Origin: Paracoccaceae bacterium
Lineage (GTDB): Bacteria; Pseudomonadota; Alphaproteobacteria; Rhodobacterales; Rhodobacteraceae
DNA length: 34,027 nucleotides
Direction: 5' to 3'
Assembly: GCA_007695345.1 (NCBI GenBank)
Contig: REDZ01000112.1
Coordinates: forward strand, 1-34,027
Shown: piece after piece, positions 3,665 through 17,571 of the stretch
Layout of the letters: every line of letters begins with the position of its first letter
Numbering within the stretch: position 1 is the first letter of the stretch
Program-made: the position numbers and the translations under genes
Notes under the pieces: generated by a model
What the model saw: the letters and a program-made list of their open reading frames with translations, nothing else
Databases searched by the model: none
Told to the model about the DNA's origin: nothing

Positions 3665-3688
3665 CAGGCCGAGATAAAGAGAGCATAC

Positions 3689-5593
3689 ATGACCCGCAGC
3701 CTTGGCGTTTGCTACTATCCCGAACACTGGCCCGAAGAAATCTGGTCGCAGGATGCCGCCCGCATGGCCGAAGCCGGGTTGACCTGGGTCCGTATCGGCG
3801 AATTTGCATGGTCGCGGCTGGAACCCACCCCCGGCCAGCTGGAATTCGACTGGCTGGATCGCGCGATTGCGGTCCTTGGGGCCGCAGGGTTGAAAGTGGT
3901 GCTGGGCACGCCCACCGCCACGCCGCCGCGCTGGATGCTGGACCGCCACCCCGACATGCTGGCGGTGGATGCGCAGGGCCACCCGCGCAAATTCGGCTCG
4001 CGCAGGCATTATTGCTTCAGCCATACGGGCTATCTTGGCGAATGCCAGCGCATCGTTACCTTGCTGGCCGAACGCTACGGGAGCTCCCCCCATGTCGCCG
4101 CCTGGCAGACCGATAATGAATATGGCTGCCATGACACGATCCACAGCTATTCCGACGCGGCCCGATCGGCCTTTCGCGACTGGCTGGCGCAGAAATATCA
4201 AAGCATGGACGCGCTGAATCGTGCCTGGGGCAATGTGTTCTGGTCGATGGAATATGCCAGCTTCGACCAGATCGATCTGCCCAATCTGACTGTCACCGAA
4301 CCCAACCCCGCGCATGTGATGGATTTCCGCCGCTTCAGCAGCGATCAGGTGGTGGCGTTCAACCGTGCACAGGCCCGGATCATTCGCCGCTATTCCAGCG
4401 CGCCGATCACGCATAATTACATGGGCCGGATCACCGAATTCGACCATTGGGCCGTCGGGGCGGACCTGGATATCGCCAGTTGGGACAGCTACCCGCTGGG
4501 GTTTCTGTCCGACCGGCTGGAGGCATCCGCCACACACAAGGCCGCCTTCCTGCGGCAGGGCGATCCGGATTTTCAGGCCTTTCACCACGACCTCTATCGC
4601 GGGGTCGGGCGCGGGCGCTGGTGGGTCATGGAACAGCAGCCCGGCCCGGTGAACTGGGCACCCTACAACCCCGCCCCCCTGCCCGGCATGGTACGACTCT
4701 GGACATGGGAGGCGTTCGCCCACGGGGCCGAGGCCGTGTGCTATTTCCGCTGGCGGCAGGCCCCTTTCGGGCAGGAACAGATGCATGCGGGGTTGTTGCG
4801 CCCCGACAGCGCCCCCGCCCCCGCTCTGGCAGAGGCCGCGCAGGTCGCGCGCGAACTGACGGACGCGCCCGAACAGGGCTGCGCACCCGGCGATGTGGCG
4901 CTGGTCTTCGACTATGAAAGCGCATGGGCCTGGACGACACAGCCGCAGGGCGCGGATTTCGATTATTTCCGCCTGTGCTTTGCCTGGTATCGGGCGCTGC
5001 GCAGGCTGGGGCTGAATATCGACATCATCCCCCCCGATGCCGAGGATTTGTCGCCGTGGCGGCTGGTGCTGGCACCAGGGCTGTTCACTCTGTCAGACCG
5101 CCTGCGCGCGGCGCTCCCCTCCTGCCGCGGTGCAGTGGTCTTTGGCCCGCGCGCCAATGCCCGCACGCGTGATTTCGCGATCCCCGATCCGCTGCCGCCC
5201 GACCTGCCGGGGCTGGATGCCAAGGTTGCGCGCGTGCAAAGCCTGCCCCCCGGCGCGTCCGAGATGCTTGATACCGGCGGCAGCTTCGTTCACTGGGTCG
5301 AGGATATCGAGACGACTGCCGAAACCCCGATCAGGCGGCAGGACGGTAGCCCCGCATTGATCCGCCATGACGCGATGCATTATCTGGCCGGGTGGCCCGA
5401 TGATGCCACGCTGACCGAGATCCTGAGGGGGATCTGCGCGGATCAGGGCATCGCGACGCTGGACCTGCCGCCGCAACTGCGCCTGCGCGACAGCGGGGGG
5501 CGGCGCTACATCTTCAACCACGGGGACGAGACAATCGTCTGGCAGGGGCGCAGCATCGCGCCTGCAGGGGTCGATATCCGAGCGATTGACTGA
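3689..5593 (+). CDS. Beta-galactosidase, glycoside hydrolase family 42
   Basis: A cytoplasmic GH42 enzyme of 634 residues, a size normal for the family, with no signal peptide. The (beta/alpha)8 catalytic domain starts with GVCYYPEHWPEE. It contains the acid/base Glu144 in WQTDNEYG and the nucleophile Glu315 in WWVMEQQPGPVNW, with spacing like that of characterised GH42 enzymes. The remaining C-terminal part fits the family's trimerisation and beta domains. It hydrolyses terminal beta-D-galactosides from small oligosaccharides taken up by the cell. As the last gene of the operon it complements the GH4 gene at the start, so the operon can accept both anomers of galactoside. The next gene, a ModE-like regulator, starts 69 bp later and belongs to another functional unit. 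Confidence 0.93.
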   Translation: MTRSLGVCYYPEHWPEEIWSQDAARMAEAGLTWVRIGEFAWSRLEPTPGQLEFDWLDRAIAVLGAAGLKVVLGTPTATPPRWMLDRHPDMLAVDAQGHPRKFGSRRHYCFSHTGYLGECQRIVTLLAERYGSSPHVAAWQTDNEYGCHDTIHSYSDAARSAFRDWLAQKYQSMDALNRAWGNVFWSMEYASFDQIDLPNLTVTEPNPAHVMDFRRFSSDQVVAFNRAQARIIRRYSSAPITHNYMGRITEFDHWAVGADLDIASWDSYPLGFLSDRLEASATHKAAFLRQGDPDFQAFHHDLYRGVGRGRWWVMEQQPGPVNWAPYNPAPLPGMVRLWTWEAFAHGAEAVCYFRWRQAPFGQEQMHAGLLRPDSAPAPALAEAAQVARELTDAPEQGCAPGDVALVFDYESAWAWTTQPQGADFDYFRLCFAWYRALRRLGLNIDIIPPDAEDLSPWRLVLAPGLFTLSDRLRAALPSCRGAVVFGPRANARTRDFAIPDPLPPDLPGLDAKVARVQSLPPGASEMLDTGGSFVHWVEDIETTAETPIRRQDGSPALIRHDAMHYLAGWPDDATLTEILRGICADQGIATLDLPPQLRLRDSGGRRYIFNHGDETIVWQGRSIAPAGVDIRAID

Positions 5594-5662: not shown

Positions 5663-6028
5663 ATGGACAAGAGCACCCTGCGCCTGCGTATCCGGATCAC
5701 ATTTGGCGATCACGGCATGATCGGCCCCGGCAAGGCGGAATTGCTGGACCGGATCGCGCGCTGCGGCTCTATCGCTGCGGCCGGGCGCGAGATGGGGATG
5801 AGCTATCGCCGCGCCTGGGAACTGGTGGGCACGATGAATGCGATGTTCCGCGATCCGGTGGTCACCCGGACGCGTGGCGGTCCGGGCGGTGGCGGCGCAG
5901 CGCTGACCGAGGCCGGGCGCGAGGTGCTGGCCCTTTATCGCGCGTTCGAACGTGAGGCGATGATCGCCGGGGCCGAACAGATCGCGGAGCTGCAATCGCG
6001 GCTGCGCGATATTCCCGACGAAAAATAA
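5663..6028 (+). CDS. ModE-like winged-helix regulator lacking a molybdate-binding domain
   Basis: The 121-residue protein matches only the N-terminal, LysR-like DNA-binding domain of ModE/MopA/MopB. It shows a helix-turn-helix around residues 27-55 (SIAAAGREMGMSYRRAWEL) and then the wing, TRTRGGPGGGGAALTEAG, a hallmark of the family. The C-terminal Mop/TOBE molybdate-binding domains of full-length ModE (about 260 residues) are missing. The stop codon is followed directly by an intergenic region, so this is a genuine short form rather than a visible frameshift. It lies 64 bp upstream of modA, with a Mo-box-like palindrome between, so control of modABC is the obvious inference. It could act as a dimer without sensing molybdate itself, or work with a separate Mop protein. 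No clear ribosome site is seen before ATG 5663. Confidence 0.85.
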   Translation: MDKSTLRLRIRITFGDHGMIGPGKAELLDRIARCGSIAAAGREMGMSYRRAWELVGTMNAMFRDPVVTRTRGGPGGGGAALTEAGREVLALYRAFEREAMIAGAEQIAELQSRLRDIPDEK

Positions 6029-6054
6029 CGCTTGTGCCAGCGGGCCGTCTGCGG

Positions 6055-6078
6055 CGATATGGTTGCCGGATCATATCG
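6055..6078 (+). promoter_or_regulatory. Mo-box-like inverted repeat upstream of modA
   Basis: A perfect 7-bp inverted repeat, CGATATG (6055-6061) and CATATCG (6072-6078), is separated by 10 bp and lies 14 bp before the modA start. Its alternating AT core flanked by CG resembles ModE/MopA Mo-boxes. The half-sites are 17 bp apart, nearly two helical turns, as expected for a winged-helix dimer. Its overlap with the modA translation-initiation region suggests repression when molybdate is plentiful. Binding itself is inferred. Confidence 0.6.
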
Positions 6079-6092
6079 TACAAGGGACCCCC

Positions 6093-6881
6093 ATGCCGTT
6101 CTGCTTTGGCCGCCGGTTCTTGCTGGCGGCATTGTCATCGCTGACCCTTGCTGCCGCGCCCGCCTGGGCGCAGGAGGATGCACCATTGGTCGCGGCAGCC
6201 TCGGACCTGCAATTCGCGGTGGACGACATCGCTGCCGCCTTCGAGGACGAGACCGGGATGCGCGTGCGGCTCGCCATGGGATCGACCGGCAATTTCGCCC
6301 GCCAGATCCGCGAGGGCGCGCCGTTCGAGATATTCATGGCCGCGGATGAGCAATTCATCGCGGATCTGCATGCTGACGGTTTCACGCGGGATGAGGGCGA
6401 TCTCTATGCCATCGGGCGGCTGGCGATCGTCGCGCCCCATGGCGCGGATCTGACACCCGATGCGGACTTGGATAATCTGGCCGAAATGCTGGATGCCGGG
6501 CGGATCATGCGCTTCGCCATCGCCAATCCTGACCACGCCCCCTACGGGATGCGCGCGCGAGAGGCACTGCAGGCGCACGGGCTGTGGGAGGCCCTGCAAC
6601 CCGCCCTGGTGCTGGGCGAGAATGTCAGTCAGGCCGCCGCATTTGCGCTGTCGGGCAATGCCGAGGGCGGGATCATCGCCTGGTCGCTGGCACTTGCCCC
6701 GCAACTGGCCGAACGCGGGGACTACGCCCTGATCGACGCGGAGTTGCACAGCCCCCTGCGTCAGCGCATGGCGCTGCTGGAGAACGCAGGCCCGGTGGCA
6801 GAGGCGTTCTATGCCTATCTGATGGCCCCCGCCGCGCGCGAGATTCTGGCACAGTATGGGTTTGCGCCGCCAGAGGAGTAA
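6093..6881 (+). CDS. modA: Molybdate ABC transporter, periplasmic substrate-binding protein
   Basis: ModA captures molybdate (and tungstate) in the periplasm and hands it to ModBC. The 262-residue protein has a Sec signal peptide ending near AAPAWAQ (residues 1-25). The mature start, PLVAAASDLQFAVDDIAAAFE, shows the oxyanion-binding Ser of the ASDL motif. Further family segments are GSTGNFARQI, PFEIFMAAD and the hinge region FAIANPDHAPYGMRA. The start is ATG 6093, with AGGGA nine bases upstream. An in-frame ATG at 6063 lies inside the Mo-box palindrome and has no ribosome site. modB follows after 3 bp. The gene probably also supplies molybdenum for the SoxC cofactor in the next cluster. Confidence 0.93.
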   Translation: MPFCFGRRFLLAALSSLTLAAAPAWAQEDAPLVAAASDLQFAVDDIAAAFEDETGMRVRLAMGSTGNFARQIREGAPFEIFMAADEQFIADLHADGFTRDEGDLYAIGRLAIVAPHGADLTPDADLDNLAEMLDAGRIMRFAIANPDHAPYGMRAREALQAHGLWEALQPALVLGENVSQAAAFALSGNAEGGIIAWSLALAPQLAERGDYALIDAELHSPLRQRMALLENAGPVAEAFYAYLMAPAAREILAQYGFAPPEE

Positions 6882-6884
6882 GGC

Positions 6885-7553
6885 ATGGACTGGACAGCGC
6901 TGGAGCTTTCCCTGCGGCTGGCGGGGTGGACGGTCGCGATCCTGCTGCCCGTCTCGATCCTGTTTGGCCGGTTCCTCGCCTTTCGGCAGTTCCGTGGCAA
7001 GGCACTGGTCGAGGCGCTGGTGATGCTGCCGCTGGTGCTGCCGCCGACAGTGCTGGGCTTTTATCTGCTGGTCACGTTTGGCCGCAACTCGCCCATCGGG
7101 CAGCTTTGGCAGGATGTCTTTGGCAGCCAGTTGGTTTTCAGCTTCACCGGGCTGGTGATCGCCTCGGTCATCTTCAACCTGCCCTTTGCCATACAACCCG
7201 CCCAGCGCGGGTTTCAGGCCATTCCGGCAGAGCTGCGCGAAGCGGCCAGTTGCTGCGGGATGTCGCCCCTGCGCGCGCTCTGGCAGGTCGAGCTGCCGCT
7301 GGCATGGCCCGGCGTGGTGACCGCGATGGTGCTGACCTTCGCCCATACGCTGGGCGAATTCGGGATCGTGCTGATGGTCGGCGGTTCCATCCCCGGAGAG
7401 ACGCGGACCATCGCCATTTCGATCTATGACCGGGTGCAGGCGTTCGACACCGACTCTGCCGCGATCATGTCGGCTGTGCTGGTGGCGATTTCGGTGACCA
7501 CCATTGCAGTGACCTTTGCGCTGTCGGCGCGCGTGGGCAGAAGGCTGTCGTGA
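6885..7553 (+). CDS. modB: Molybdate ABC transporter permease
   Basis: A 222-residue inner-membrane permease with about five membrane spans. It carries the ABC-permease EAA loop, here ELREAASCCGMSPLRALWQVELPLA in the published sense (Glu-Ala-Ala then Gly 6 residues on), which contacts the ModC ATPase. The end of the protein shows GEFGIVLMVGGSIPGETRT, a segment typical of ModB and CysT/CysW relatives. The gene starts 3 bp after the modA stop and ends in a TGATG junction with modC, so modABC is one transcript. Length is close to the E. coli protein. Specificity for molybdate rather than sulfate is supported by the ModA and ModC neighbours. Confidence 0.93.
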   Translation: MDWTALELSLRLAGWTVAILLPVSILFGRFLAFRQFRGKALVEALVMLPLVLPPTVLGFYLLVTFGRNSPIGQLWQDVFGSQLVFSFTGLVIASVIFNLPFAIQPAQRGFQAIPAELREAASCCGMSPLRALWQVELPLAWPGVVTAMVLTFAHTLGEFGIVLMVGGSIPGETRTIAISIYDRVQAFDTDSAAIMSAVLVAISVTTIAVTFALSARVGRRLS

Positions 7554-8647
7554 TGGCGCTGGAGGTGAGCGCACAGGCCAGCGCGCCGATCCCGCTGGAT
7601 GTGGCGTTCCGGGTCGCACCGGGCGAGTTGCTGGCGCTGGTGGGGCATTCGGGGTCGGGCAAGACAACGCTCCTGCGCATGATCGCCGGGCTGTGGACAC
7701 CCACGCAGGCGCGGGTGGCGGTGAATGGCAAGACCTGGCTGGACACGCGCGCGCGGGTCAACCTGGCCCCGCATCGGCGCCGGGTGGGGTTGGTGTTCCA
7801 GAATTATGCGCTGTTTCCGCATATGAGTGCCGCGCAGAATGTCATGGCGGCGATGGATAAGCCCGATCCGGCGGAAGCCGGGCGCATCCTCGATCTGGTG
7901 AACCTGAAGGATCTGGGCGCGCGCCACCCGGCGCAACTGTCAGGCGGGCAGCAACAGCGGGTGGCGGTGGCCCGCGCGCTGGCGCGTCGCCCGCAAGCCT
8001 TGCTGCTGGATGAGCCGTTCTCGGCGGTGGACCGCGCGACTCGGGAAAAGCTTTATGCCGAAATCATCGCGCTGCGCGCACATCTGAACATGCCGGTGGT
8101 TCTGGTCACACATGATGTGAACGAGGCGCAGCTTCTCGCCGACCGGATGCTGGTGATCGAGAGCGGGCGCGTGCTGTCGCAGGGAACTGTGGCAGAGGTG
8201 ATGGCCGACGCAACCGCGCTGCGCGCCATGGGTATCCGCGAATTGGCGGCGCTGCTGCCTGCGACTGTCGCCGAACATCTGCCCGACGGCCTGACCCGCC
8301 TTGACACCCCGTCCGGCCCGCTATTCCTGCCGCGCGTGGCCAGCCCGCCCGGCACGCGCGTCCGGGTGCGCATCATGGCGCATGAGGTGATCGTGGCGCG
8401 CACGCGCCCCGAAGGGCTGTCGGCGCAAAACATCCTTGCGGGCACAGTTGCACAGATCGTGCCCGGACAGGGGCCTGCGGTGATGGTGCATATCACTGTG
8501 GGCGCGCATGAGATCATCGCGCGCATCACCCGCCGCGCCGCCGGTCAGCTTGCCCTGCGCCCCGGCGACCCGGTACATGCCATCGTGAAATCCATGTCGG
8601 TCGCGCGCGACCATGTCACACCCGCCGGGGCGACCATCGGCGATTGA
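7553..8647 (+). CDS. modC: Molybdate ABC transporter ATP-binding protein
   Basis: A cytoplasmic ATPase of 364 residues that powers ModB. The nucleotide-binding domain shows Walker A (GHSGSGKTT), the Q-loop region (GLVFQNYALFPHMS), the signature LSGGQQQRVAVARAL, and Walker B (ALLLDEPFSAVD) with the H-loop THDVNEA. The last ~70 residues (from about LSAQNILAGTV) form a TOBE/Mop-type oxyanion-binding domain, usual in ModC and useful for feedback inhibition by molybdate. ATG 7553 shares one base with the modB stop (TGATG). A GTG codon directly before it at 7550 would add one residue. The gene is convergent with soxS, 47 bp away, and no strong terminator is seen between them. Confidence 0.93.
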   Translation: MALEVSAQASAPIPLDVAFRVAPGELLALVGHSGSGKTTLLRMIAGLWTPTQARVAVNGKTWLDTRARVNLAPHRRRVGLVFQNYALFPHMSAAQNVMAAMDKPDPAEAGRILDLVNLKDLGARHPAQLSGGQQQRVAVARALARRPQALLLDEPFSAVDRATREKLYAEIIALRAHLNMPVVLVTHDVNEAQLLADRMLVIESGRVLSQGTVAEVMADATALRAMGIRELAALLPATVAEHLPDGLTRLDTPSGPLFLPRVASPPGTRVRVRIMAHEVIVARTRPEGLSAQNILAGTVAQIVPGQGPAVMVHITVGAHEIIARITRRAAGQLALRPGDPVHAIVKSMSVARDHVTPAGATIGD

Positions 8648-8694: not shown

Positions 8695-9078
8695 TCAGCC
8701 CGAGGGCTGGTCCAGACCCGCGTCAATTGCGCGGGTGATCATGCCGTCTATATAGGGCCAGAAGAAATCATCCCCCGGATAGCCGGTCAGGCGATCCACC
8801 TCTTGCCCGTCAGCATCCAGCAGGATGAAGGTCGGCGTGACATGCGCCCGAGAAGCCAGCGAAATATCATCGGGCAGGGTGTCACGCAGATCATAATGCA
8901 CCAGCGGCGCAAGGCGCCCCTCTTCGGATTTGTGATAGATCGGGGCGACATCGCGCTTGAAGACGACGCAATAGTAACAGCCCGGACGCTCGACCATCAG
9001 CAGGCGCAGCCCGTCAGCGGCCGCTGCCATTGGCAGCATCATCGCAAACGCAAAGACCAATACTCCCGTCTGGCGCAT
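8695..9078 (-). CDS. soxS: Periplasmic thioredoxin-like protein SoxS
   Basis: The protein (127 residues from the chosen start) has a signal peptide (MRQTGVLVFAFAMMLPMAAAADG) and a thioredoxin fold with the redox motif PGCYYC. A VTPTFILLDADG strand carries the cis-proline. SoxS proteins of sulfur oxidisers are periplasmic thioredoxins that receive electrons through SoxV and keep SoxY in its reactive thiol state. The divergent soxV gene and the sox cluster behind it make this assignment strong. The open frame extends up to 9219, with other possible starts at 9126 and 9219. I chose 9078 because it begins a clean signal peptide, but no good ribosome site precedes any of the three. A SoxW thioredoxin gene, often present as well, is not found here. 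Confidence 0.82.
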   Translation of the reverse strand: MRQTGVLVFAFAMMLPMAAAADGLRLLMVERPGCYYCVVFKRDVAPIYHKSEEGRLAPLVHYDLRDTLPDDISLASRAHVTPTFILLDADGQEVDRLTGYPGDDFFWPYIDGMITRAIDAGLDQPSG

Positions 9079-9134
9079 CGCGGCGCGCAGCAATGAAAGC
9101 GGGGATTGACGCGAGGGGCTAAACATCAGAACAA

Positions 9135-9146
9135 TGTAATATAACA
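9135..9146. promoter_or_regulatory. AT-rich imperfect palindrome between soxS and soxV
   Basis: TGTAATATAACA is a 12-bp palindrome broken by one mismatched pair, in an AT-rich pocket of the divergent soxS-soxV region. In Paracoccus the ArsR-type repressor SoxR binds the equivalent soxS-soxV intergenic region. The core TAATAT followed by CA recurs in the AT-rich island before soxY. The soxR gene itself is not in the window, so operator function is a guess. Confidence 0.35.
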
Positions 9147-9239
9147 ATCTGACAAACTCAAGCGAAAGCCGTCGCCATGACGGCAAGGTGGCGCACTCAG
9201 ACCGGCACCGCGCACCCATCCCGGAGCAAGAGGCAGGAC

Positions 9240-9977
9240 ATGCTGGATATCAGCTTTGGTGGCGCGGCGATTGCAGGGCTCTTGTCCTTTCTGACGCCTT
9301 GTGTCCTGCCCATCGTGCCGTTCTACCTGTGCTACCTGGCCGGGCTGTCCATGTCCGAACTGCGCGGCGAGCAGGAGATGCCAGCCGGCGCGCAGCGGCG
9401 ACTGGTCGTGTCATCCATGGCGTTCTCGATTGGGGTCACGTCCATTTTCATGCTGTTCGGGCTGGGGGCAACCGCACTGGGGCAGGCATTTCTGGAATGG
9501 CGCGAGGTGCTGCAATGGGTGGCGGCGGGCGTGCTGATGGCGTTCGGACTGCATTTTCTGGGGGTCTTCCGGATCGGGTTCCTGTATCGGCAGGCGCGGC
9601 TGGAAACCTCGGGCCCGCCCAAATCCGTTGCGGGGGCCTATGTGATGGGGCTGGCCTTCGGCTTTGGGTGGACGCCTTGCATCGGCCCTGCGCTGGCGGC
9701 GATTCTGATGGTGGCGTCGGGCATGGGTGATCTGTGGCGCGGCACCGCATTGCTGGCTGTCTACGGGCTGTCCATGACCCTGCCTTTCGTGCTGGCGGCC
9801 CTGTTCTCTCGCCCCTTCCTGAACTGGGTCGCCCGGAACCGCGCACGGCTGGCCCATGTCGAGAAGGTCATGGGCGCGATGCTGGTGCTATTCGCGATTC
9901 TGATCGGCACGAATACGGTCGAATATCTGGCCTTTGCGATGCTGGAATGGCTGCCATGGCTGGGGCGGCTGGGCTGA
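9240..9977 (+). CDS. soxV: CcdA-family thiol-disulfide electron transporter SoxV
   Basis: A 245-residue inner-membrane protein with six predicted membrane spans and the two cysteines of the CcdA/DsbD core: LTPCVLPIVPFYLCYLAG in span 1 and GWTPCIGPAL in span 4. SoxV carries reducing equivalents from cytoplasmic thioredoxin to periplasmic thioredoxins, and from there to SoxY. The start is ATG 9240, preceded by AGAGG, and the following MLDISFGGAAIAGLLSFLTPC is the standard CcdA start. An in-frame ATG at 9177 would add a soluble N-terminal piece and is unlikely. It is divergent from soxS. Cytochrome c maturation (ccdA) is the alternative role for the family, but the sox context decides it. Confidence 0.9.
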   Translation: MLDISFGGAAIAGLLSFLTPCVLPIVPFYLCYLAGLSMSELRGEQEMPAGAQRRLVVSSMAFSIGVTSIFMLFGLGATALGQAFLEWREVLQWVAAGVLMAFGLHFLGVFRIGFLYRQARLETSGPPKSVAGAYVMGLAFGFGWTPCIGPALAAILMVASGMGDLWRGTALLAVYGLSMTLPFVLAALFSRPFLNWVARNRARLAHVEKVMGAMLVLFAILIGTNTVEYLAFAMLEWLPWLGRLG

Positions 9978-10014
9978 TTCCGGGGTATCCCGCTCAGGGC
10001 CCCCAGCAAAAAAC

Positions 10015-10081
10015 CTTTTGAATTCCAGAGAAATATACAAATTCAGAGAAAATAATATTGCAGATATTGAATTTTTGTTTG
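10015..10081 (+). promoter_or_regulatory. AT-rich island with tandem direct repeats, candidate control region of soxYZ-BCDEF
   Basis: AATTC(C)AGAGAAA(T)A occurs twice in direct orientation, at 10021-10035 and 10040-10053, about 19 bp apart. An inverted pair AAATTC (10039-10044) and GAATTT (10069-10074) encloses a second small inverted repeat, AATAT (10054-10058) and ATATT (10064-10068). Such AT content is rare in this window. The spacing near two helical turns fits a protein-binding array, and a SoxR-type repressor or an upstream activating region are the natural candidates. No convincing -35/-10 pair could be fixed. Confidence 0.45.
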
Positions 10082-10215
10082 CGGCAACGGCATGCCATGG
10101 GCTACAGTCATAATGTCGCATCTTGGAGGAGGTGATGTGCAGGTCGCGCGGCGCGTCTGGAACGCCCGGCCCGCACCGACAAGGCGGAGGAATTCGATGA
10201 TGTGTCATCACGCAA

Positions 10216-10232
10216 TGCGGGGCATTCCCGCA
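10216..10232 (+). other. Small hairpin in the soxY leader
   Basis: TGCGGG (10216-10221) pairs perfectly with CCCGCA (10227-10232) around a five-base loop GCATT. No T-run follows, so it is not a standard terminator. It may shape the soxY leader RNA. Confidence 0.4.
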
Positions 10233-10306
10233 AACAGGGATCTGTTGCCTGTTAGGGCACGCCACGCGGGACGCACCTCCCTTACCCTGACCCGTGACAC
10301 AGGCGC

Positions 10307-10322
10307 GGCAGGCATTCCTGCC
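10307..10322 (+). other. Small hairpin 47 bp before soxY
   Basis: GGCAGG (10307-10312) pairs perfectly with CCTGCC (10317-10322) around the tetraloop CATT, nearly the same loop as in the hairpin at 10216. No T-run follows. Recurrence of a G-rich stem with a CATT loop suggests an RNA element or a protein-binding site, but chance cannot be excluded. Confidence 0.4.
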
Positions 10323-10368
10323 CCGAGCATTCTTGACCGTTTCGCGGTTGCTGAGAGGAAAAGCTGAT

Positions 10369-10791
10369 ATGTTCACACGACGTTCCACCATGGCGCTGGG
10401 CCTTGGCGCCGCTGCAGTGACACTCGCTCCGCTGAAAGCGAGCGCGAGCATTCCCACTGTCGAGGATGCGGTTGCAGATTTCACCGGCGGCGCCAGCGTC
10501 GCCGATGAAGGCGTGAGCGTTATCGCCCCCGAGATTGCCGAGAATGGCGAGAATGTACCGGTCGAGGTTGATGCCCCCGGCGCAGTCGCGATCATGCTTC
10601 TGGCGCCGGGCAACCCGACCCCGCGCGTGGTCGATGTCCGCTTCGGCGAGGCCTCTGGCGCGCCGCGTCTGGCAACGCGTCTGCGTCTGGGCGAAACGCA
10701 AGAGGTCACGGCCTATGCGCAGATGGCCGATGGCAGCTACAAGCGCGGCAAGGCCGAAGTGCGCGTCACGATCGGCGGCTGCGGCGGCTGA
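10369..10791 (+). CDS. soxY: Sulfur carrier protein subunit SoxY
   Basis: SoxY carries sulfur intermediates covalently on a C-terminal cysteine in the periplasm while the Sox enzymes act on them. The 140-residue protein begins with a Tat-type signal (RRSTMALGLGAAAV) and ends in the diagnostic swinging arm GGCGG, with Cys138 as the carrier. It forms a complex with SoxZ, encoded 38 bp downstream. The start is ATG 10369 with GAGAGGAA upstream. An in-frame ATG at 10294 would place a poor extension before the Tat signal. The Tat signal lets the folded SoxYZ pair be exported together, since SoxZ has no signal of its own. All functional residues are present. Confidence 0.95.
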   Translation: MFTRRSTMALGLGAAAVTLAPLKASASIPTVEDAVADFTGGASVADEGVSVIAPEIAENGENVPVEVDAPGAVAIMLLAPGNPTPRVVDVRFGEASGAPRLATRLRLGETQEVTAYAQMADGSYKRGKAEVRVTIGGCGG

Positions 10792-10829
10792 TCGCCCGCC
10801 CGCAAGCCCTGCCAGCAAGGAGAGAACAG

Positions 10830-11156
10830 ATGTCCAATGTCAGACCCCGTATCCGCCTGCCCCGCTCTGCCCGTCCGGGCGATGTCGTGCAGGTCCGCAC
10901 CCTGATCAGCCACCCCATGGAAACCGGTAACCGCCGCGACGCGGATGGTAATGTGATCCCGCGTCAGATCATCAACCGTTTCACCTGCGAATATGATGGC
11001 AAGATGGTGCTGGACGTGGATCTGGGCGTGTCGGTCGCGGCGAATCCGTTCATGGAGTTCGATGTCAAGGTCGAGCGCGCGGCCGATTTCGTCTTTACCT
11101 GGCATGATGATGACGGTTCGGTCTATTCCGAGACGCAGCATCTTGAGCTGAGCTGA
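10830..11156 (+). CDS. soxZ: Sulfur carrier protein subunit SoxZ
   Basis: SoxZ is the partner of SoxY in the SoxYZ sulfur carrier and is exported with it. The 108-residue protein matches the family from start to end. It opens with RPRIRLPRSARPGDVVQVRTLISHPMETG (shown here by its key elements: basic start, GDVVQVR, then ISHPMETG). It ends with FTWHDDDGSVYSETQHLEL, an immunoglobulin-like beta-sandwich strand pattern. It has no signal peptide, as expected. A ribosome site (AAGGAGAG) lies just before ATG 10830. In Paracoccus-type clusters soxA follows soxZ. Here a 149-bp gap with no coding content leads straight to soxB. Confidence 0.95.
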   Translation: MSNVRPRIRLPRSARPGDVVQVRTLISHPMETGNRRDADGNVIPRQIINRFTCEYDGKMVLDVDLGVSVAANPFMEFDVKVERAADFVFTWHDDDGSVYSETQHLELS

Positions 11157-11161
11157 CACGG

Positions 11162-11182
11162 CGCCCGGCCGCTTGTCGGGCG
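11162..11182 (+). other. Hairpin just after soxZ
   Basis: CGCCCG (11162-11167) and CGGGCG (11177-11182) form a 6-bp stem with a 9-base loop, 6 bp after the soxZ stop. No T-run follows. It could slow 3' decay of the soxYZ message or mark the scar where soxA is missing. Evidence for function is thin. Confidence 0.3.
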
Positions 11183-11305
11183 GGCAGATGCGCAGCAGGC
11201 AAATCTGTCCCGCAACTCCCCCGCAGATCCAACTGGTGCGGCGGATGCGCCGCGCGAACACAGCCCTGGCTGAACAGAACAGCCTTGCCCAAGAGAGGCC
11301 CCCGC

Positions 11306-12997
11306 ATGATTTCACGCCGCGCATTCCTGCAAGCCTCGCTCGCCGCATCAGCGCTGTATGGTGCGTCGGGCGTGGGCAACTGGGCGCGGCTGGCCGCGCA
11401 ACAGGTGCTGTCCGAAGAGGATCTGCTGCGCTTTGACAGCTACGGCAATGTTTCCCTGATTCATGTGACCGACATTCATGCCCAGACCCGGCCCATCTGG
11501 TTCCGCGAGCCGGAAGTGAATATCGGGGTCGGCGACGCCTCGGGACGCCCGCCGCATGTGGTGGGCAAGGCGTTTCTGGAGATGTTCGACATCGCCCCCG
11601 ACTCGCCCGAGGCCTATGCGCTGACCTATGCTGATTTCGAAGCACTGGGGCAGGCATACGGGCGCATGGGCGGGCTGGACCGCGTCGCGCGCGTCGTGAA
11701 CGCCATCCGCGCCGACCGGCCCGATGCGATCCTGCTGGATGGGGGCGATACCTGGCACGGGTCCATGACCAGCCATCTGACCCAGGGTCAGGACATGGTC
11801 AATATCATGAACCGCCTTGGCGTCGATGGCATGACAAGCCATTGGGAATGGACCTTCGGGCAGGACCGCGTGCACGAGATCGTGGATGCCCTGCCCTTCC
11901 CCTTCCTCGGGCAGAACATCTTCGAGCGGGACTGGGACGACCCCGAATTCGACGATTACGCCATCTTCGAACGCGGCGGGGCGCGGGTCGCGGTGATCGG
12001 GCAGGCCTTTCCCTATATGCCCATCTCGAACCCCGGCTGGATGTTCCCGGATTACAGTTTTGGCATTCGCGAGCGCCGGATGCAGGAAATGGTCGATGAG
12101 GTGCGCGCCGACGGGGCCGATCTGGTCGTGGTGCTGTCGCATAACGGATTTCCGACCGACCGGCAGATGGCGCAGCGCGTGCAGGGGATCGACGTGATCC
12201 TGACGGGCCACACGCATGACGCCCTCCCCGAGCCGGTGATCGAGGGGGAAACACTGCTGATTGCCAGCGGCAGCCACGGGAAATTCGTCACGCGGCTGGA
12301 TCTCGATGTGCGAGAGGGCCGCATGATGGGGTTTCGGCACAAGCTGATCCCGGTCTTTGCCGATGTCATCACCCCCGACCGCGACATGGCCGCCCTGATC
12401 GAGGCAGAGCGCGCACCCTACAAGGAGGATCTGGAAGAGGTGATCGGGCACACGGACTCGCTGCTGTACCGGCGCGGCAATTTCAACGGCACATGGGATG
12501 ATCTGATCGTGGACGCGATCATGTCCGAGCGTGACACGGAAATCGCGTTGTCGCCGGGTGTGCGCTGGGGCGCGAGCCTGATGCCGGGCGATGCGATCAC
12601 ACGCGAGGATATCCATGCCGTCACCACAATGACCTATGGCCAGTGCTACCGGATGGAAATGACGGGCGCGACGCTGAAAGCCACGATGGAGGATGTGGCC
12701 GAAAACATCTTCAACCCCGACCCGTATTTTCAGGCGGGCGGCGACATGGTGCGCATGGGGGGCATGGGCTACCGCATCGATGTGTCGCAATCGCAGGGCA
12801 GCCGGATATCCGAGATGGTGCTGCTTTCTACAGGCGAGGCCATTGACCCCGACCGCAGCTACACGGTCGGCGGCTGGGGCAGCGTCAATCAGGGCGTCGA
12901 GGGGCCGCAGATCTGGGATGTGGTCGAAACCCATATCCGCAAACTCGGGCGCGTCAGTCTGGAGCCGAACACCTCGGTTCAGGTGACGGGCACCTGA
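11306..12997 (+). CDS. soxB: Thiosulfohydrolase SoxB
   Basis: SoxB hydrolyses the terminal sulfonate from SoxY-bound S-thiosulfonate, releasing sulfate in the periplasm. The 563-residue protein starts with a Tat signal (SRRAFLQASLAASALYG). It carries the dimetal phosphoesterase motifs expected for its manganese site: VTDIHAQ (Asp56, His58), LLDGGDTWHGS, LSHNGF and LTGHTHDALPEP. A 5'-nucleotidase-type C-terminal domain follows from about residue 380. Length is normal. ATG 11306 is chosen because AGAGAGG lies upstream and the Tat signal starts here; an in-frame ATG at 11285 has no such support. Its substrate is normally made by SoxXA, which is not encoded nearby. Confidence 0.95.
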   Translation: MISRRAFLQASLAASALYGASGVGNWARLAAQQVLSEEDLLRFDSYGNVSLIHVTDIHAQTRPIWFREPEVNIGVGDASGRPPHVVGKAFLEMFDIAPDSPEAYALTYADFEALGQAYGRMGGLDRVARVVNAIRADRPDAILLDGGDTWHGSMTSHLTQGQDMVNIMNRLGVDGMTSHWEWTFGQDRVHEIVDALPFPFLGQNIFERDWDDPEFDDYAIFERGGARVAVIGQAFPYMPISNPGWMFPDYSFGIRERRMQEMVDEVRADGADLVVVLSHNGFPTDRQMAQRVQGIDVILTGHTHDALPEPVIEGETLLIASGSHGKFVTRLDLDVREGRMMGFRHKLIPVFADVITPDRDMAALIEAERAPYKEDLEEVIGHTDSLLYRRGNFNGTWDDLIVDAIMSERDTEIALSPGVRWGASLMPGDAITREDIHAVTTMTYGQCYRMEMTGATLKATMEDVAENIFNPDPYFQAGGDMVRMGGMGYRIDVSQSQGSRISEMVLLSTGEAIDPDRSYTVGGWGSVNQGVEGPQIWDVVETHIRKLGRVSLEPNTSVQVTGT

Positions 12998-13046
12998 CTT
13001 AACCAACTGCAGGGCCACCCTGCCAAGAGACAAAGGGACGAATGTC

Positions 13047-14324
13047 ATGACAGACAGGTCAGAGGCAAAGGGCGGCACCTCGCGCCGCGCTTTCCTGCGC
13101 ACGGCAGGGCTTGCTGCCGGGGGCGCGGCACTGGGGGCAGGCGGCGCGCGCGCGACATCGCCTGACCCGCTGATCACCGAGGTTCAGCCCTGGGCGATGT
13201 TTCTGGGCGAAGGCGTTGATGCAACGCCTTACGGAATGCCCATTCATTTCGAGGATCATGTGGTCCGGCGCAATGTGGACTGGCTGACCGCTGATCCTGT
13301 CGCCTCGATCAACTTCACGCCGATCCATGCGCTTGATGGCACCATCACCCCGCAGGGCTGCGCGTTTGAACGCCACCACTCGGGCGCAATTGAACTCAGC
13401 AAGGAAGAGTATCGGCTGATGATCACCGGGCTGGTGGAAAAGCCGCTGGTCTTTACGTTTGGCGATCTGATGCGCATGCCGCGCATCACCCGCACGGCGT
13501 TCTGCGAATGCGCGGCCAATAGCGGCATGGAATGGGGTGGTGCGCAGCTCAATGCGGTGCAGTTCACCCATGGCATGATCCACAACATGGAATACACCGG
13601 CGTGTCCCTGCGCACGCTTCTGAACGAGGCGGGCGTCAAGCCCGAGGGGACATGGATTTATGTCGAGGGTGCGGATGCCTCGTCCAATGGCCGCTCGATC
13701 CCGATGGAAAAGGCGCTGGACGACTGCATGATCGCCTTTACCGCCAATGGCGAGGCGCTGCGCATGGAACACGGCTACCCCGCGCGGCTGGTCGTGCCGG
13801 GATGGGAAGGGAACCTCTGGGTCAAATGGCTGCGCCGCATCGGTGTGCATGATGGCCCGATGGAAGCCCGCGAGGAAACCAGCAAATACACTGACCTGAT
13901 GCCTGACGGGCGCGCGCGCAAATGGACATGGGCCATGCACGCGAAATCGGTCATTACATCGCCCTCGCCGCAGATGCCGGTGGGCCACGGGCCGGGACCG
14001 ATGGTGATTTCGGGCCTCGCCTGGTCGGGGCTGGGCAGGATCGCGCGGGTGGATGTGTCACTCGATGGCGGGGCCAACTGGCAAGAGGCCCGCCTGGCGG
14101 GCGAGCCCGGCGACAAGGCCCTGACGCGCTTCTATGTCGACCACGAATGGGACGGCCAGCCGATGTATCTGCAATCGCGCGCCGTGGATGAGACCGGCTA
14201 TGTCCAGCCCACCAAGGACCAGCTGCGCGAGATCCGCGGTGTCAATTCCATCTACCATAACAACGGCATCCAGACCTGGTATGTCAACGAGAACGGAGAG
14301 GCCGAAAATGTCGAGATTGGGTAA
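13047..14324 (+). CDS. soxC: Sulfane dehydrogenase molybdenum subunit SoxC
   Basis: SoxC is the molybdenum-cofactor subunit of the periplasmic SoxCD complex, which oxidises the SoxY-bound sulfane sulfur and yields six electrons per sulfur. The 425-residue protein has a Tat signal (SRRAFLRTAGLAAGGAALGAG), a sulfite-oxidase-type molybdopterin domain with the cofactor-binding cysteine in CECAANSG (Cys155), and a C-terminal dimerisation domain with a VDVSLDGGANWQEA strand. Length matches the Paracoccus protein. It overlaps soxD by 17 bp, so the two subunits are translationally coupled. Presence of SoxCD predicts full oxidation of sulfur to sulfate without sulfur-globule formation. The molybdate uptake genes 4.4 kb upstream fit its cofactor need. 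Confidence 0.95.
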   Translation: MTDRSEAKGGTSRRAFLRTAGLAAGGAALGAGGARATSPDPLITEVQPWAMFLGEGVDATPYGMPIHFEDHVVRRNVDWLTADPVASINFTPIHALDGTITPQGCAFERHHSGAIELSKEEYRLMITGLVEKPLVFTFGDLMRMPRITRTAFCECAANSGMEWGGAQLNAVQFTHGMIHNMEYTGVSLRTLLNEAGVKPEGTWIYVEGADASSNGRSIPMEKALDDCMIAFTANGEALRMEHGYPARLVVPGWEGNLWVKWLRRIGVHDGPMEAREETSKYTDLMPDGRARKWTWAMHAKSVITSPSPQMPVGHGPGPMVISGLAWSGLGRIARVDVSLDGGANWQEARLAGEPGDKALTRFYVDHEWDGQPMYLQSRAVDETGYVQPTKDQLREIRGVNSIYHNNGIQTWYVNENGEAENVEIG

Positions 14325-15402
14325 GTTTCTGGCAAGCTCGGCCGTTGCGGGCTTTATGGCGGCCGCCCCGGCCCTTGCCGACCCGCTGGCAGACGCGCTG
14401 GGGCTGGGCCGCGCCGCCCTGCCCGAGGAAATCGCCGCATGGGATGTGGCGGTCATGCCTGACGGGCAGGGGCTGCCCCCCGGTCACGGCGATGTCTGGG
14501 ATGGCGAGGATCTGTGGATCGACCATTGCGCCGCCTGCCATGGCGATTTCGCCGAGGGCGCGGGCGCATGGCCCCCGATCGTGGGCGGGTCGGGCACGCT
14601 GACGGATGTGCGGCCGCTGAAAACGGTCGAATCCTACTGGCCCTATCTTTCGACTGTGTGGGACTACATCAACCGGTCCATGCCATTCGGCGCGGCCCAG
14701 ACCCTCGAGGTGGATGAAGTCTATGCGATCACTGCCTATATCCTGTTCTCGGCCGGACTGGTCGATGCTGATTTCGAGTTGACTCAGGACAATTTCACCG
14801 AAATCCGCCTGCCCAATGAGGATGGCTTCTATATCGACGACCGCGCCGAGGTGGAGTTTCCCGTCTTCACGCAAGAGCCCTGCATGAGCGACTGCCGCGG
14901 CGATGTGACGATCGTGGCGCGGGCCACCGATCTGGACGTGACCCCCGAATTTCCGGTGATCCGCAACCTGTATTCCGATCCGCTCCACCCGGAGGCTGCG
15001 AGGGATAACAGCATCGAGGACGCAGCCGCGCAGCCTGTTGAAGATGACAGCGCCAATGAGGTTCAGCTTGCCTCGCTTGATCCCGAACTGGTTGCTGCGG
15101 GCGAGATGGCCTGGCGGCAATGCCGGTCCTGCCACCAGCTTGGCGATGGCGCGCGCAACGGCGCCGGGCCGCAGCTGAACGAGATCGTGGGCGCTGCTGT
15201 TGCCGGGGTCGATGGCTTCCGCTATTCGCCGGCCTTCGAGGCGGCGCGCGACGAGGGACTGGTCTGGGATGCCGAGATGCTGGACACGTTTCTGGAAAAC
15301 CCGTCCGGGCTGATCCCGCGCAACCGCATGTCCTTTCGCGGGGTGCGCGATGCCGACGAACGCGCAGCATTGATCGCTTATCTGAAATCGCATACGGATT
15401 GA
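14308..15402 (+). CDS. soxD: Sulfane dehydrogenase dihaem cytochrome subunit SoxD
   Basis: SoxD accepts electrons from SoxC and passes them to small c-type cytochromes. The 364-residue protein has a Sec signal peptide (cleaved near APALADPL) and two haem c sites, CAACH at residues 74-78 and CRSCH at 272-276, each in its own cytochrome domain. An acidic linker of roughly 50 residues separates the domains. ATG 14308 lies inside the end of soxC and is preceded by GGAGAG. The longer open frame from 14134 overlaps soxC by 190 bp and has no signal peptide at its start. soxE begins 3 bp after the stop, so soxCDE is tightly linked. Confidence 0.94.
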   Translation: MSRLGKFLASSAVAGFMAAAPALADPLADALGLGRAALPEEIAAWDVAVMPDGQGLPPGHGDVWDGEDLWIDHCAACHGDFAEGAGAWPPIVGGSGTLTDVRPLKTVESYWPYLSTVWDYINRSMPFGAAQTLEVDEVYAITAYILFSAGLVDADFELTQDNFTEIRLPNEDGFYIDDRAEVEFPVFTQEPCMSDCRGDVTIVARATDLDVTPEFPVIRNLYSDPLHPEAARDNSIEDAAAQPVEDDSANEVQLASLDPELVAAGEMAWRQCRSCHQLGDGARNGAGPQLNEIVGAAVAGVDGFRYSPAFEAARDEGLVWDAEMLDTFLENPSGLIPRNRMSFRGVRDADERAALIAYLKSHTD

Positions 15403-15405
15403 GAT

Positions 15406-16125
15406 ATGAGGCACAGCACATACCTCTTTTGCGCGGTTGCGCTGACCCTTGCGCCGGGTGCCGCGCTCGCGCAGGCCGTCCCGCTGGGTGATCCGGCGCA
15501 GGGGGCCGAGTTGTACCAGCAGGAATGCGCGGCCTGCCACCAGATCGGCGAGGGAGCCGAGCATCGCATCGGTCCGAAGCTGAACCGCATCTTTGACCGG
15601 CGTGCGGGCAGCCTCGAGTTCGACGGGTATTCCGAAGCGCTGCCGCGTCAGGGCCGCGACGGGCTGCACTGGGATTTCCCGCGACTGGACGCCTATATCG
15701 CCAACCCCCGTTCGCTGGTATCGGGCACCAATATGGGCTATCCGGGGCTGGAGGATGCGGGCGAGCGCGCGGACCTGATCGCGTTTATCCGCGCCTTCTC
15801 GGACCGTCCCCAGGACATCCCGGAAGCTGCCCCCACGGCCTTTGCGCCCGAGGTGCAGCTTCCTGCCGAGGTGCTGGAGATCGAGGGCGATGCCGAATAC
15901 GGCGAATTCCTCAGCGCGTCCTGCACCACCTGCCACCAGCGCAGTGGCGATCATGCGGGTATTCCCGGCATTGTCGGATGGCCGGAGGAAGATTTCGTCG
16001 TCGCCATGCATGCCTACAAGCAGGAACTGCGCCCGCATCAGGTGATGCAATCCGTGGCACAGCGCCTTGACGATGAAGAGATTGCCGCGCTTGCGGCCTA
16101 TTTCCGCGCGCTGAGGCGCGAATGA
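15406..16125 (+). CDS. soxE: Dihaem cytochrome c SoxE
   Basis: A 239-residue periplasmic dihaem cytochrome. It has a signal peptide (ending near GAALAQ), a class I cytochrome domain with CAACH at residues 41-45, and a second domain with CTTCH at 173-177. The second domain resembles the cytochrome subunit of flavocytochrome c sulfide dehydrogenase, with the ending SVAQRLDDEEIAALAAYF. In Paracoccus SoxE pairs with the flavoprotein SoxF. soxF follows here too, but after a 183-bp gap that contains a long perfect hairpin rather than directly. Both haem sites look intact. TsdB-like electron acceptors are a remote alternative. Confidence 0.88.
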   Translation: MRHSTYLFCAVALTLAPGAALAQAVPLGDPAQGAELYQQECAACHQIGEGAEHRIGPKLNRIFDRRAGSLEFDGYSEALPRQGRDGLHWDFPRLDAYIANPRSLVSGTNMGYPGLEDAGERADLIAFIRAFSDRPQDIPEAAPTAFAPEVQLPAEVLEIEGDAEYGEFLSASCTTCHQRSGDHAGIPGIVGWPEEDFVVAMHAYKQELRPHQVMQSVAQRLDDEEIAALAAYFRALRRE

Positions 16126-16172
16126 CAGCGCGCGCGGGCAATCAGCCTTGCCTGCGCACGCGCGAATGCGAT

Positions 16173-16206
16173 GCCGTCCCGTATCCGCTGCGCCATACGG
16201 GACGGC
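16173..16206. repeat. Perfect 12-bp inverted repeat between soxE and soxF
   Basis: GCCGTCCCGTAT (16173-16184) and ATACGGGACGGC (16195-16206) are exact reverse complements with a 10-base loop. The transcript would form a very stable stem. No T-run follows, so a classical terminator is unlikely. An mRNA processing or stabilising element that separates soxE from soxF, or a protein-binding palindrome, is more plausible. Confidence 0.65.
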
Positions 16207-16308
16207 GTCATCAGACCAGCGGGTCCAGTCTGTGCACTGGGCACCGGGGTTTGGGAGGATCGGCGCGGTACATGCCTGTTTGAAGGCACCCAAGGGAGTG
16301 AAGTCATA

Positions 16309-17571
16309 ATGAAACTGAACAGACGCAGATTCCTCGGATCGGCAACAGCCGCATCCGCGATCCTGTCGGCCCCTGCTCTGCTGGGCAATGCCCGCCCGCG
16401 CGTGGTCGTGATCGGCGGTGGCTCGGGCGGTGGGACAGCCGCGCGCTATCTGGCCACCGACAGCAACGGCGCGCTGGACGTGACGCTGATCGAACCCTCG
16501 CGCATGTATTACACCTGCTATTTCTCGAACCTCTATCTGGGCGGGTTCTGGGAATTTGATGCGCTTGGGCATGATTACGGAAACATGGCGATGAGCGGTG
16601 TGAACATCATCCATGACTGGGCAATGGCCGTGGACCGTGATGCGCAGACCGTGTCACTGGGCGCGGGCGGCACAGTGCCCTATGACCGGCTTGTCGTGTC
16701 GCCGGGGATCGATTTCGTGGACGGGGCCGTCCCCGGCTGGGATGTGAGCCAGCAAGGCAAGATGCCCCATGCCTACAAATCCGGCACGCAGGCGCAGCTT
16801 CTGAAATCGCAGGTCGAGAATATGCGCGAAGGCGGGGTTTACGCCATGATTGCGCCCCCGAACCCCTATCGCTGCCCGCCCGGACCTTATGAACGGATCT
16901 CGATGGTCGCGCATATCCTGTCCGAACGGAACCCGACCGCCAAGATCCTGATCGTGGACCCGAAAGAGAATTTCTCGAAGCGGGGTCTGTTCGAAGAAGG
17001 CTGGAATCGCCACTACGCGGGCATGGTCGACTGGATCGGCCCGGATTTCGGCGGCGACAATGTCGAAGTGCGCCCTGATGACATGGAAGTCGTCATCGAC
17101 GGCATGGTCGAAAGTGTCGATGTCTGCAATGTCATCCCTGCACAAAAGGCGGGCAAGATCGCCGATCTGGCCGGGCTGACCAATGACGCGGGCTGGGCCC
17201 CGGTCATGCCACAGGACATGCGTTCGCGCATGGATGACAATGTCTTTGTGCTGGGGGATGCCAGCCAGCAGGGCGCGATGCCGAAATCGGGCTATTCGGC
17301 CAACAGCCAGGCCAAGGTGGTCGCCAATGTCATCCGGGGCGAACTGACCGACAGCCGCATCTTCCCTGCGCGCTACTCGAATGCCTGCTGGTCGCTGATC
17401 GCGACTGATGACGGGGTCAAGGTCGGCGCCAGCTACGAGCCCGGCGAGGATGAGATCGAGTCGGTCTCGAGCTTCATCAGCGAAACGGGCGAGGATGCCG
17501 AGCTGCGCCGCCAGACCTATGAGGAAAGCATCGGCTGGTATAACGGGATCGTGGACGACATCTTCGGCTGA
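16309..17571 (+). CDS. soxF: Flavoprotein SoxF, sulfide dehydrogenase-type
   Basis: SoxF is the FAD subunit related to flavocytochrome c sulfide dehydrogenase and oxidises sulfide in the periplasm. The 420-residue protein has a Tat signal (NRRRFLGSATAASAIL) and the FAD-binding motif VVVIGGGSGGGTAARYL. Cys70 in YYTCYFSNLYLGG corresponds to the residue that binds flavin covalently in FccB. Further cysteines in NPYRCPPGPYER and YSNACWSL match the redox-active pair of that family. ATG 16309 has GGGAG upstream. The open frame upstream to 16171 lacks a signal and crosses a hairpin. A strong terminator follows at 17596. With SoxE it could feed sulfide-derived sulfur onto SoxYZ, which matters because SoxXA is not found here. 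Confidence 0.92.
   Translation: MKLNRRRFLGSATAASAILSAPALLGNARPRVVVIGGGSGGGTAARYLATDSNGALDVTLIEPSRMYYTCYFSNLYLGGFWEFDALGHDYGNMAMSGVNIIHDWAMAVDRDAQTVSLGAGGTVPYDRLVVSPGIDFVDGAVPGWDVSQQGKMPHAYKSGTQAQLLKSQVENMREGGVYAMIAPPNPYRCPPGPYERISMVAHILSERNPTAKILIVDPKENFSKRGLFEEGWNRHYAGMVDWIGPDFGGDNVEVRPDDMEVVIDGMVESVDVCNVIPAQKAGKIADLAGLTNDAGWAPVMPQDMRSRMDDNVFVLGDASQQGAMPKSGYSANSQAKVVANVIRGELTDSRIFPARYSNACWSLIATDDGVKVGASYEPGEDEIESVSSFISETGEDAELRRQTYEESIGWYNGIVDDIFG

Follow-up and report, generated by a model that had tools for sequence, protein, structure and literature searches.

The window analysed here is a stretch of DNA of 34,027 nt (G000:C17:1-34027; contig REDZ01000112.1) from a Paracoccaceae bacterium, termed a soda-lake-type bacterium, whose genome is a metagenome-assembled genome (MAG) of 3.26 Mb in 231 contigs, 91.4 % complete. 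It carries a sox cluster in which the genes run soxV-Y-Z-B-C-D-E-F on the plus strand, without soxX, soxA and soxW. In the Sox system, SoxXA attaches thiosulfate, and SoxCD and SoxB act on the sulfur carried by SoxY. A preliminary description of the sequence had placed soxY, Z, B, C, D, E and F, without soxX and soxA, at 9978-17571. That gene content is borne out by profile scores, by gaps free of CxxCH heme motifs and by genome searches. The end coordinate also stands, but 9978 is the base after soxV, and the module starts at the soxS-like gene (8695-9219). Nor are soxX and soxA, absent as described, the only genes missing: soxW has also gone, and tblastn with the Paracoccus pantotrophus and Ruegeria loci as reference detected neither soxR nor soxT in the window. 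The features of the locus are as follows.

8695..9219, minus strand: soxS-like periplasmic thioredoxin, divergent from soxV (PF13098, 27.5 bits, cut-off 27)
9177..9977, plus strand: soxV, CcdA/DsbD-type membrane protein (PF02683, 58.7 bits)
9978..10368, plus strand: soxV-soxY gap, the place of soxW and soxX in relatives
10041..10113, plus strand: retained DNA, directly upstream of soxX in SoxXA-bearing relatives (78 % over 73 nt, L315)
10369..10791, plus strand: soxY, carrier protein, C-terminal GGCGG intact (TIGR04488, 126.5 bits, cut-off 125)
10830..11156, plus strand: soxZ (TIGR04490, 101.7 bits, above cut-off)
11157..11305, plus strand: soxZ-soxB gap of 149 bp, the place of soxA in relatives
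11306..12997, plus strand: soxB, thiosulfohydrolase (TIGR04486, 818.6 bits for the open reading frame from 11285, above cut-off)
13047..14324, plus strand: soxC, molybdoprotein of SoxCD (TIGR04555, 611.6 bits, above cut-off)
14308..15402, plus strand: soxD, diheme cytochrome c (CxxCH at 14527 and 15121)
15406..16125, plus strand: soxE, diheme cytochrome c (two CxxCH, no further cysteine in the mature part)
16171..17571, plus strand: soxF, flavocytochrome c sulfide dehydrogenase flavoprotein (PF21706, PF09242)

All sox frames in the window are open. The soxS-like product shares 44 % identity over 8713-9009 with the Ruegeria protein taken as SoxS, and the position of soxV agrees with that of soxV in the Ruegeria and P. 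pantotrophus loci. SoxY aligns with the solved SoxY structure 2oxg through the GGCGG end, and SoxB with the solved SoxB 2wdc. The presence of SoxCD is indicated by the TIGR04555 match of SoxC, the two CxxCH motifs of SoxD and the best solved-structure match of SoxC, 2xts. SoxF matched the solved structures 5n1t (1.9e-98) and 1fcd (1.1e-92), and the gene for the diheme SoxE, its putative cytochrome partner, adjoins soxF. We infer that soxD natively starts at 14308, the longest open reading frame beginning at 14134, and soxF probably starts at 16309. On the sox strand, no CxxCH motif occurs in the soxV-soxY or soxZ-soxB gaps.

SoxXA-less here denotes SoxB-bearing genomes in which SoxA is unmatched and SoxX stays below cut-off, and SoxXA-bearing those that carry SoxXA; both terms are also used for single loci and alignment rows. 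In the genome search suggested alongside the preliminary description, the SoxA profile TIGR04484 had no match in the window genome at its 91.4 % completeness, where the controls were also silent, the same search having matched 15 of the 37 genomes of the genus, and the SoxX profile TIGR04485 gave two matches of 29.5 and 25.7 bits, far under the cut-off of 61. SoxB scored above cut-off in 24 of the 37 and is split across two contigs in G013 and G025, giving 26 SoxB-bearing genomes. Fifteen of these have SoxA; the other 11, the window genome and ten more, are SoxXA-less (G000, G006, G009, G011, G013, G015, G018, G028, G031, G032 and G033), and eight of the 11 are at least 90 % complete. SoxX exceeded its cut-off in 16 of the 37 genomes, none of them SoxXA-less; the sixteenth is G010, a MAG 83 % complete in which SoxA had no match and SoxB none over cut-off. 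The SoxA-TsdA cytochrome domain PF21342 matched exactly the 15 SoxA genomes and none of the 11. Nine of the SoxXA-less genomes, including that of the window, make up group A, in which soxV-Y-Z-B is contiguous within one contig; G028 and G033 make up group B, and G033 is a genome of six contigs.

SoxXA is generally counted as an essential part of the Sox pathway. The pattern found here indicates that its absence in the genus is real, contrary to the explanation offered in a survey of Siberian soda lakes, which ascribed the partial sets of sox genes in MAGs of Roseinatronobacter and Roseovarius probably to incompleteness, and reported full sets in Natronohydrobacter and Rhodobaca. Relocation of soxXA, which had been raised at the outset, was rejected, as profile searches of the 11 genomes, the six-contig G033 included, gave no match to SoxA and none above cut-off to SoxX. 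Three candidate substitutes were also considered and rejected: TsdA, given the missing PF21342 matches; SoxE acting through a cysteine-ligated heme, as the mature SoxE of 12 SoxXA-less loci has no cysteine beyond CxxCH; and a second SoxYZ module, which is present in only some SoxXA-less genomes.

The reference gene order was taken from Ruegeria sp. SCSIO 43209 (an annotated locus, to whose genes the present analysis gave the names soxR, S, T, V, W and D-F by position) and from plasmid pPAN3 of P. pantotrophus DSM 11072 (tblastn). Both loci have soxT-R-S on the minus strand, then soxV-W-X-Y-Z-A-B-C-D-E-F. By blastn, 73 nt of the soxV-soxY gap of the window (10041-10113) are 78 % identical to G003 (L315; E 3e-11), where the match is the DNA immediately before the inferred soxX start, and 97 nt of the corresponding gap in G031 aligned at the same place (E 1e-18). 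The upstream DNA of soxX has therefore been kept and now lies before soxY; judged from the sequence, the loss is one in place. The retained segment is probably a promoter or leader. No soxX coding remnant beyond chance was found in the soxV-soxY gap of the window (the best match was reached by 1 of 100 shuffles), and the soxZ-soxB gap held no convincing SoxA remnant.

In relatives, soxX (with soxW) and soxA lie on opposite sides of soxYZ, and at several loci both have gone around a kept soxYZ; one simple deletion is therefore no explanation. This synteny supports the joint loss of the two SoxXA subunits that the preliminary description had raised. The group A genome G031 (L230) retains soxT-R-S-V and soxY-Z-B-C-D-E-F and has lost W, X and A alone, as is also the case in G046 and G326. 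The ten SoxXA-less loci compared (the window, L224, L225, L228, L230, L222, L229, L306, L307 and L308) all lack soxW along with soxX and soxA; eight of them keep soxS and seven keep soxV. SoxW may serve SoxXA, or soxW may have been lost with soxX in one deletion.

Among the best 80 of 417 confirmed SoxB relatives, seven loci have no soxX and soxA in place (L010-L015 and L054) and 71 have both; L076 is cut by the contig end, and L027 has a visible soxA, the rest lying past the contig end. In a family-wide draw of 395 genomes, nearly all at least 90 % complete (SoxB at E up to 1e-120, SoxA at E up to 1e-20), SoxB was found in 255 and SoxA in 253, with 11 genomes holding SoxB without SoxA. Nine genomes showed SoxA and no SoxB at these thresholds (G049, G053, G081, G114, G177, G213, G315, G337 and G394). 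Ten of the 11 lie outside the genus, and their SoxX was judged at the locus, not genome-wide. The loci of G052, G046 and G326 contain soxY-Z-B-C-D-E-F but neither W, X nor A, and that of G052 has no V either. The expected gaps of G326 hold weak relics of the start of SoxX, at 33.1 bits (shuffles at most 26.6), and of the SoxA heme region, at 27.3 bits (shuffles at most 25.4); none of 100 shuffles reached either score. In G240, soxX is decayed and soxA absent. Diverged clusters, with SoxB 48-49 % identical to that of the window, occur in G188 and G283; their loci (L310 and L312) read soxY-Z-C-(cytochrome)-B, with soxF-E on the opposite strand, and neither soxX nor soxA was found in them. G061 has YZ and B-C-D with no EF nearby, and G085 only YZ-B; G205 has soxX, a soxA relic and a stop within the SoxB frame; in G269 the contig ends within the locus.

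A quick SoxB tree of 100 rows requires four changes for the SoxXA-less state, several SoxXA-less rows being long-branched and unsure in placement (the SoxB of G205 was dropped as too short, and L027, L076 and L305, of unknown state, were uncounted). This tree unites groups A and B with a modest support of 85. Residues that are fixed in group A and not in SoxXA-bearing relatives are shared with group B at two of five positions in SoxY, two of two in SoxZ, two of three in SoxC and two of four in SoxF. The concatenated tree of seven Sox proteins, from which the SoxY of L012 was left out, places A apart from a long-branched B, and A and B together are rejected (approximately unbiased test, p 0.011). 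From these comparisons two losses in the genus appear likelier, though the matter is not settled. In the rpoB tree, group A is interleaved with SoxXA-bearing species, and on Sox proteins it is one clade; the SoxXA-less cluster has therefore possibly been transferred, and may have moved between species of the genus.

What remains of the cluster looks intact. V, Y, Z, B, C, D, E and F are kept together in six group A genomes. Median omega of the retained genes (NG86, trimmed alignments, again without the SoxY of L012) is 0.074-0.173 in group A, 0.087-0.158 in SoxXA-bearing relatives and 0.060-0.150 in the single group B pair. By this measure, purifying selection acts on the retained genes about as strongly as in SoxXA-bearing relatives, and the window shows neither the broken frames nor the relaxed selection of a degenerate cluster. 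The SoxY C-terminus GGCGG is found in 17 of 19 SoxXA-less rows, including the window, the exceptions being G001 (GGCTG) and G011. In G011 (L012/L225, group A), soxY has GGCGG but then lacks a stop, and its frame continues into soxZ for about 60 residues, possibly through an assembly slip. The SoxF motif C[PA]PGPYER occurs in 16 of 16 SoxXA-less rows and in 37 of 57 SoxXA-bearing rows, weak best hits included. The SoxY residue before VTIGGC is K in all 78 SoxXA-bearing rows; in the 19 SoxXA-less rows it is R in 12 and K in five, with no match in two; visual inspection adds R for L015 and gives Q for G001. As a marker of the SoxXA-less state this R was rejected, with just two changes on the tree and a median p of 0.5 in an independent-pairs test.

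Directly upstream of the sox genes, window positions 5663-8647 encode a ModE-type regulator and a modABC molybdate transporter (modA, TIGR01256). SoxC is a molybdoenzyme, and this transport operon adjoins its cluster; modA and modC also lie upstream in G009 (L011/L224), and neither turned up in the remaining group A loci read. Downstream of the sox genes, the minus strand carries a gene for an ammonium transporter.

The kept set, together with the repeated SoxXA gap in relatives, suggests another entry of sulfur into the pathway. The interpretation that we favour, with belief and doubt about evenly balanced, is a working Sox system that has lost, by in-place deletion, the thiosulfate loader SoxXA together with SoxW, and in which SoxYZ is loaded with sulfur from sulfide or polysulfide, most likely by SoxEF. 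The parts that are left could carry sulfide-level sulfur all the way to sulfate along a closed route within the periplasm. SoxEF, a flavocytochrome c, would oxidize sulfide or polysulfide and put the sulfane sulfur on the SoxY cysteine; SoxCD, from what is known of its family, would oxidize the SoxY-bound sulfane to the sulfonate, and SoxB, on the same grounds, would hydrolyse the sulfonate to sulfate, freeing SoxYZ. SoxF belongs to the flavocytochrome c sulfide dehydrogenase family, and EF, YZ, CD and B together could therefore take sulfide or polysulfide to sulfate. We regard as established that SoxXA is absent, that it was lost in place, that the loss recurs, that key motifs are intact and that purifying selection continues; the SoxEF entry step we regard as plausible.

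Two reduced modules pair SoxYZ with a flavocytochrome c, without XA, B, C and D. In G001, whose genome is listed as 100 % complete, C65 (L237) carries only soxY (GGCTG end), soxZ, soxE and soxF at 9476-12445, and the genome shows no match to SoxA or SoxC and none over cut-off to SoxB or SoxX. In the window genome, contig G000:C112 (L218) encodes a small cytochrome c, an FccB-like flavoprotein, a SoxY-like protein ending in GGCVT and a SoxZ-like protein at 1666-4114, with no further sox gene recognized in the 12 kb read. Such modules fit a pairing of SoxYZ with a flavocytochrome of this kind.

Several observations weigh against this interpretation. Omega is slightly higher in group A than in SoxXA-bearing relatives for soxV, soxY, soxB and soxD, and no SoxE residue is fixed differently between the two. 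SoxF accompanies 12 of 13 SoxXA-less and 50 of 66 SoxXA-bearing loci (raw counts of loci with soxC present and enough flank, some genomes appearing twice among the SoxXA-bearing); SoxEF is not special to SoxXA-less loci, and was rejected as a marker of the loss. The SoxXA-less G061 and G085 have no SoxEF nearby. Paracoccus SoxY(Sn)Z oxidation in vitro is reported still to have required SoxAX, and H2S degradation by recombinant Paracoccus proteins to have required all rSox proteins, both assays apparently run without SoxEF. The SoxEF-driven loading put forward in the preliminary description stays plausible and fits the retained parts, with the Paracoccus requirement for SoxAX, and the thiosulfate oxidation reported for strain S2, on the other side of the balance.

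The announcement of Roseinatronobacter sp. S2 (PMC10508151) describes six circular contigs with an assembly N50 of 3,479,920, and its gene list gives SoxBCDYZ, Sqr and FccB. We infer that G033 is this published complete isolate genome. On the authority of an earlier paper, the announcement states that S2 oxidizes thiosulfate to sulfate, and the sections of it consulted draw no conclusion from the absent SoxXA. Of two later papers on the same spring, the consulted text of one (PMC12198100) does not contain the term SoxX, and the other (PMC10308030) reports that Sox completeness varies. A sulfide-only route leaves the thiosulfate oxidation reported for S2 without explanation, which counts against the favoured interpretation; a further entry would be needed for it, with tetrathionate chemistry or another enzyme as candidates. 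A broader proposition, which we hold tentatively, is that a working Sox system can dispense with SoxXA: several lineages of the family would have dropped SoxXA and SoxW and would feed SoxYZ-CD-B through a different entry, and in S2 this entry would even take thiosulfate, implying an undescribed loader or route. The question of why pre-loaded SoxYZ needed SoxAX in vitro, an unexpected result, is now answerable in S2, which is cultured and sequenced.

An unlikely alternative is that thiosulfate still enters SoxYZ by another enzyme or by chemistry, SoxB and SoxCD acting as usual. SoxY-S-SSO3 could form by reaction of the SoxY thiol with tetrathionate made by neighbours or another enzyme; alternatively, a rhodanese in the periplasm could transfer the sulfane of thiosulfate to SoxYZ. 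Such an entry would accommodate S2, which as G033 is SoxXA-less and is reported to convert thiosulfate to sulfate (PMC10508151), and tetrathionate treatment is reported to give SoxY(SSO3)Z enzyme-free. However, no TsdA-type domain was found in the 11 SoxXA-less genomes (DoxDA/TQO, rhodanese and Sqr were not searched), and thiosulfate oxidation in Hyphomicrobium denitrificans is reported to be impossible without SoxXA and SoxYZ.

Decay of the cluster, with XA lost first and the rest following, we consider improbable. It draws on G001, which is also without B, C and D, on the soxA relic and interrupted SoxB frame of G205, on the long end branches of five SoxXA-less SoxB rows outside the genus and the long stem of group B, on the soxY frame without a stop in G011, and on the reading of missing soxXA as degeneration in Acidithiobacillus (PMC10531304). 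The group A frames used, however, are open except for that one soxY, with omega near that of SoxXA-bearing relatives, and six of the genomes keep all eight genes together. It is hardly probable that a strongly diverged cytochrome encoded elsewhere replaces SoxXA: the genome does encode further c-type cytochromes (for example on G000:C132, C18, C20, C162 and C112), but the 11 genomes have no SoxA-TsdA domain match, and the sub-threshold SoxX matches lie in frames of 327 and 245 residues, with matches in frames of similar length also in SoxXA-bearing relatives. An assembly gap or relocation, conceivable for a MAG of 231 contigs and 91 % completeness, is very improbable given the unbroken soxV-Y-Z-B inside a contig in nine group A genomes and the SoxXA-less state of the six-contig G033.

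The finding is more general than a single window and points to SoxXA-independent use of the Sox core. In the parts of the open-licence PMC literature consulted, no SoxXA-less, SoxCD-bearing cluster was found for this family beyond the S2 gene list, which is not proof of absence. S2 resembles the window in its SoxXA-less cluster and, if it is G033, belongs to the same genus, but as G033 its cluster falls in the separate group B and has no adjoining soxV. Beyond this family, the literature consulted led to a review of Acidithiobacillus and to cave epsilonproteobacteria. The iron/sulfur-oxidizing Acidithiobacillus have partial sox sets without soxXA, described as possible gradual degeneration (PMC10531304), whereas the window keeps SoxCD and selection persists. 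In Erythrobacter flavus, a TsdA-SoxB pathway has been proposed in which SoxB is active without SoxXA (PMC7608252, PMC9426585); that pathway needs TsdA, and none was matched in the 11 SoxXA-less genomes; the window has SoxYZ and SoxCD. With the Paracoccus-type system (soxTRS-VW-XYZABCDEF) the window shares SoxYZ, SoxB, SoxCD, SoxEF, SoxV and a SoxS-like protein, encoded in the same order, but it is without SoxX, SoxA and SoxW, and soxR and soxT are likewise not seen there. Among the defining components of that type, the window has SoxYZ with the GGCGG arm, SoxB and SoxCD, and not SoxXA. The truncated Sox systems, such as that of Hyphomicrobium, likewise miss one catalytic component; in those systems SoxCD is missing and SoxXA is present, and the window is the reverse.

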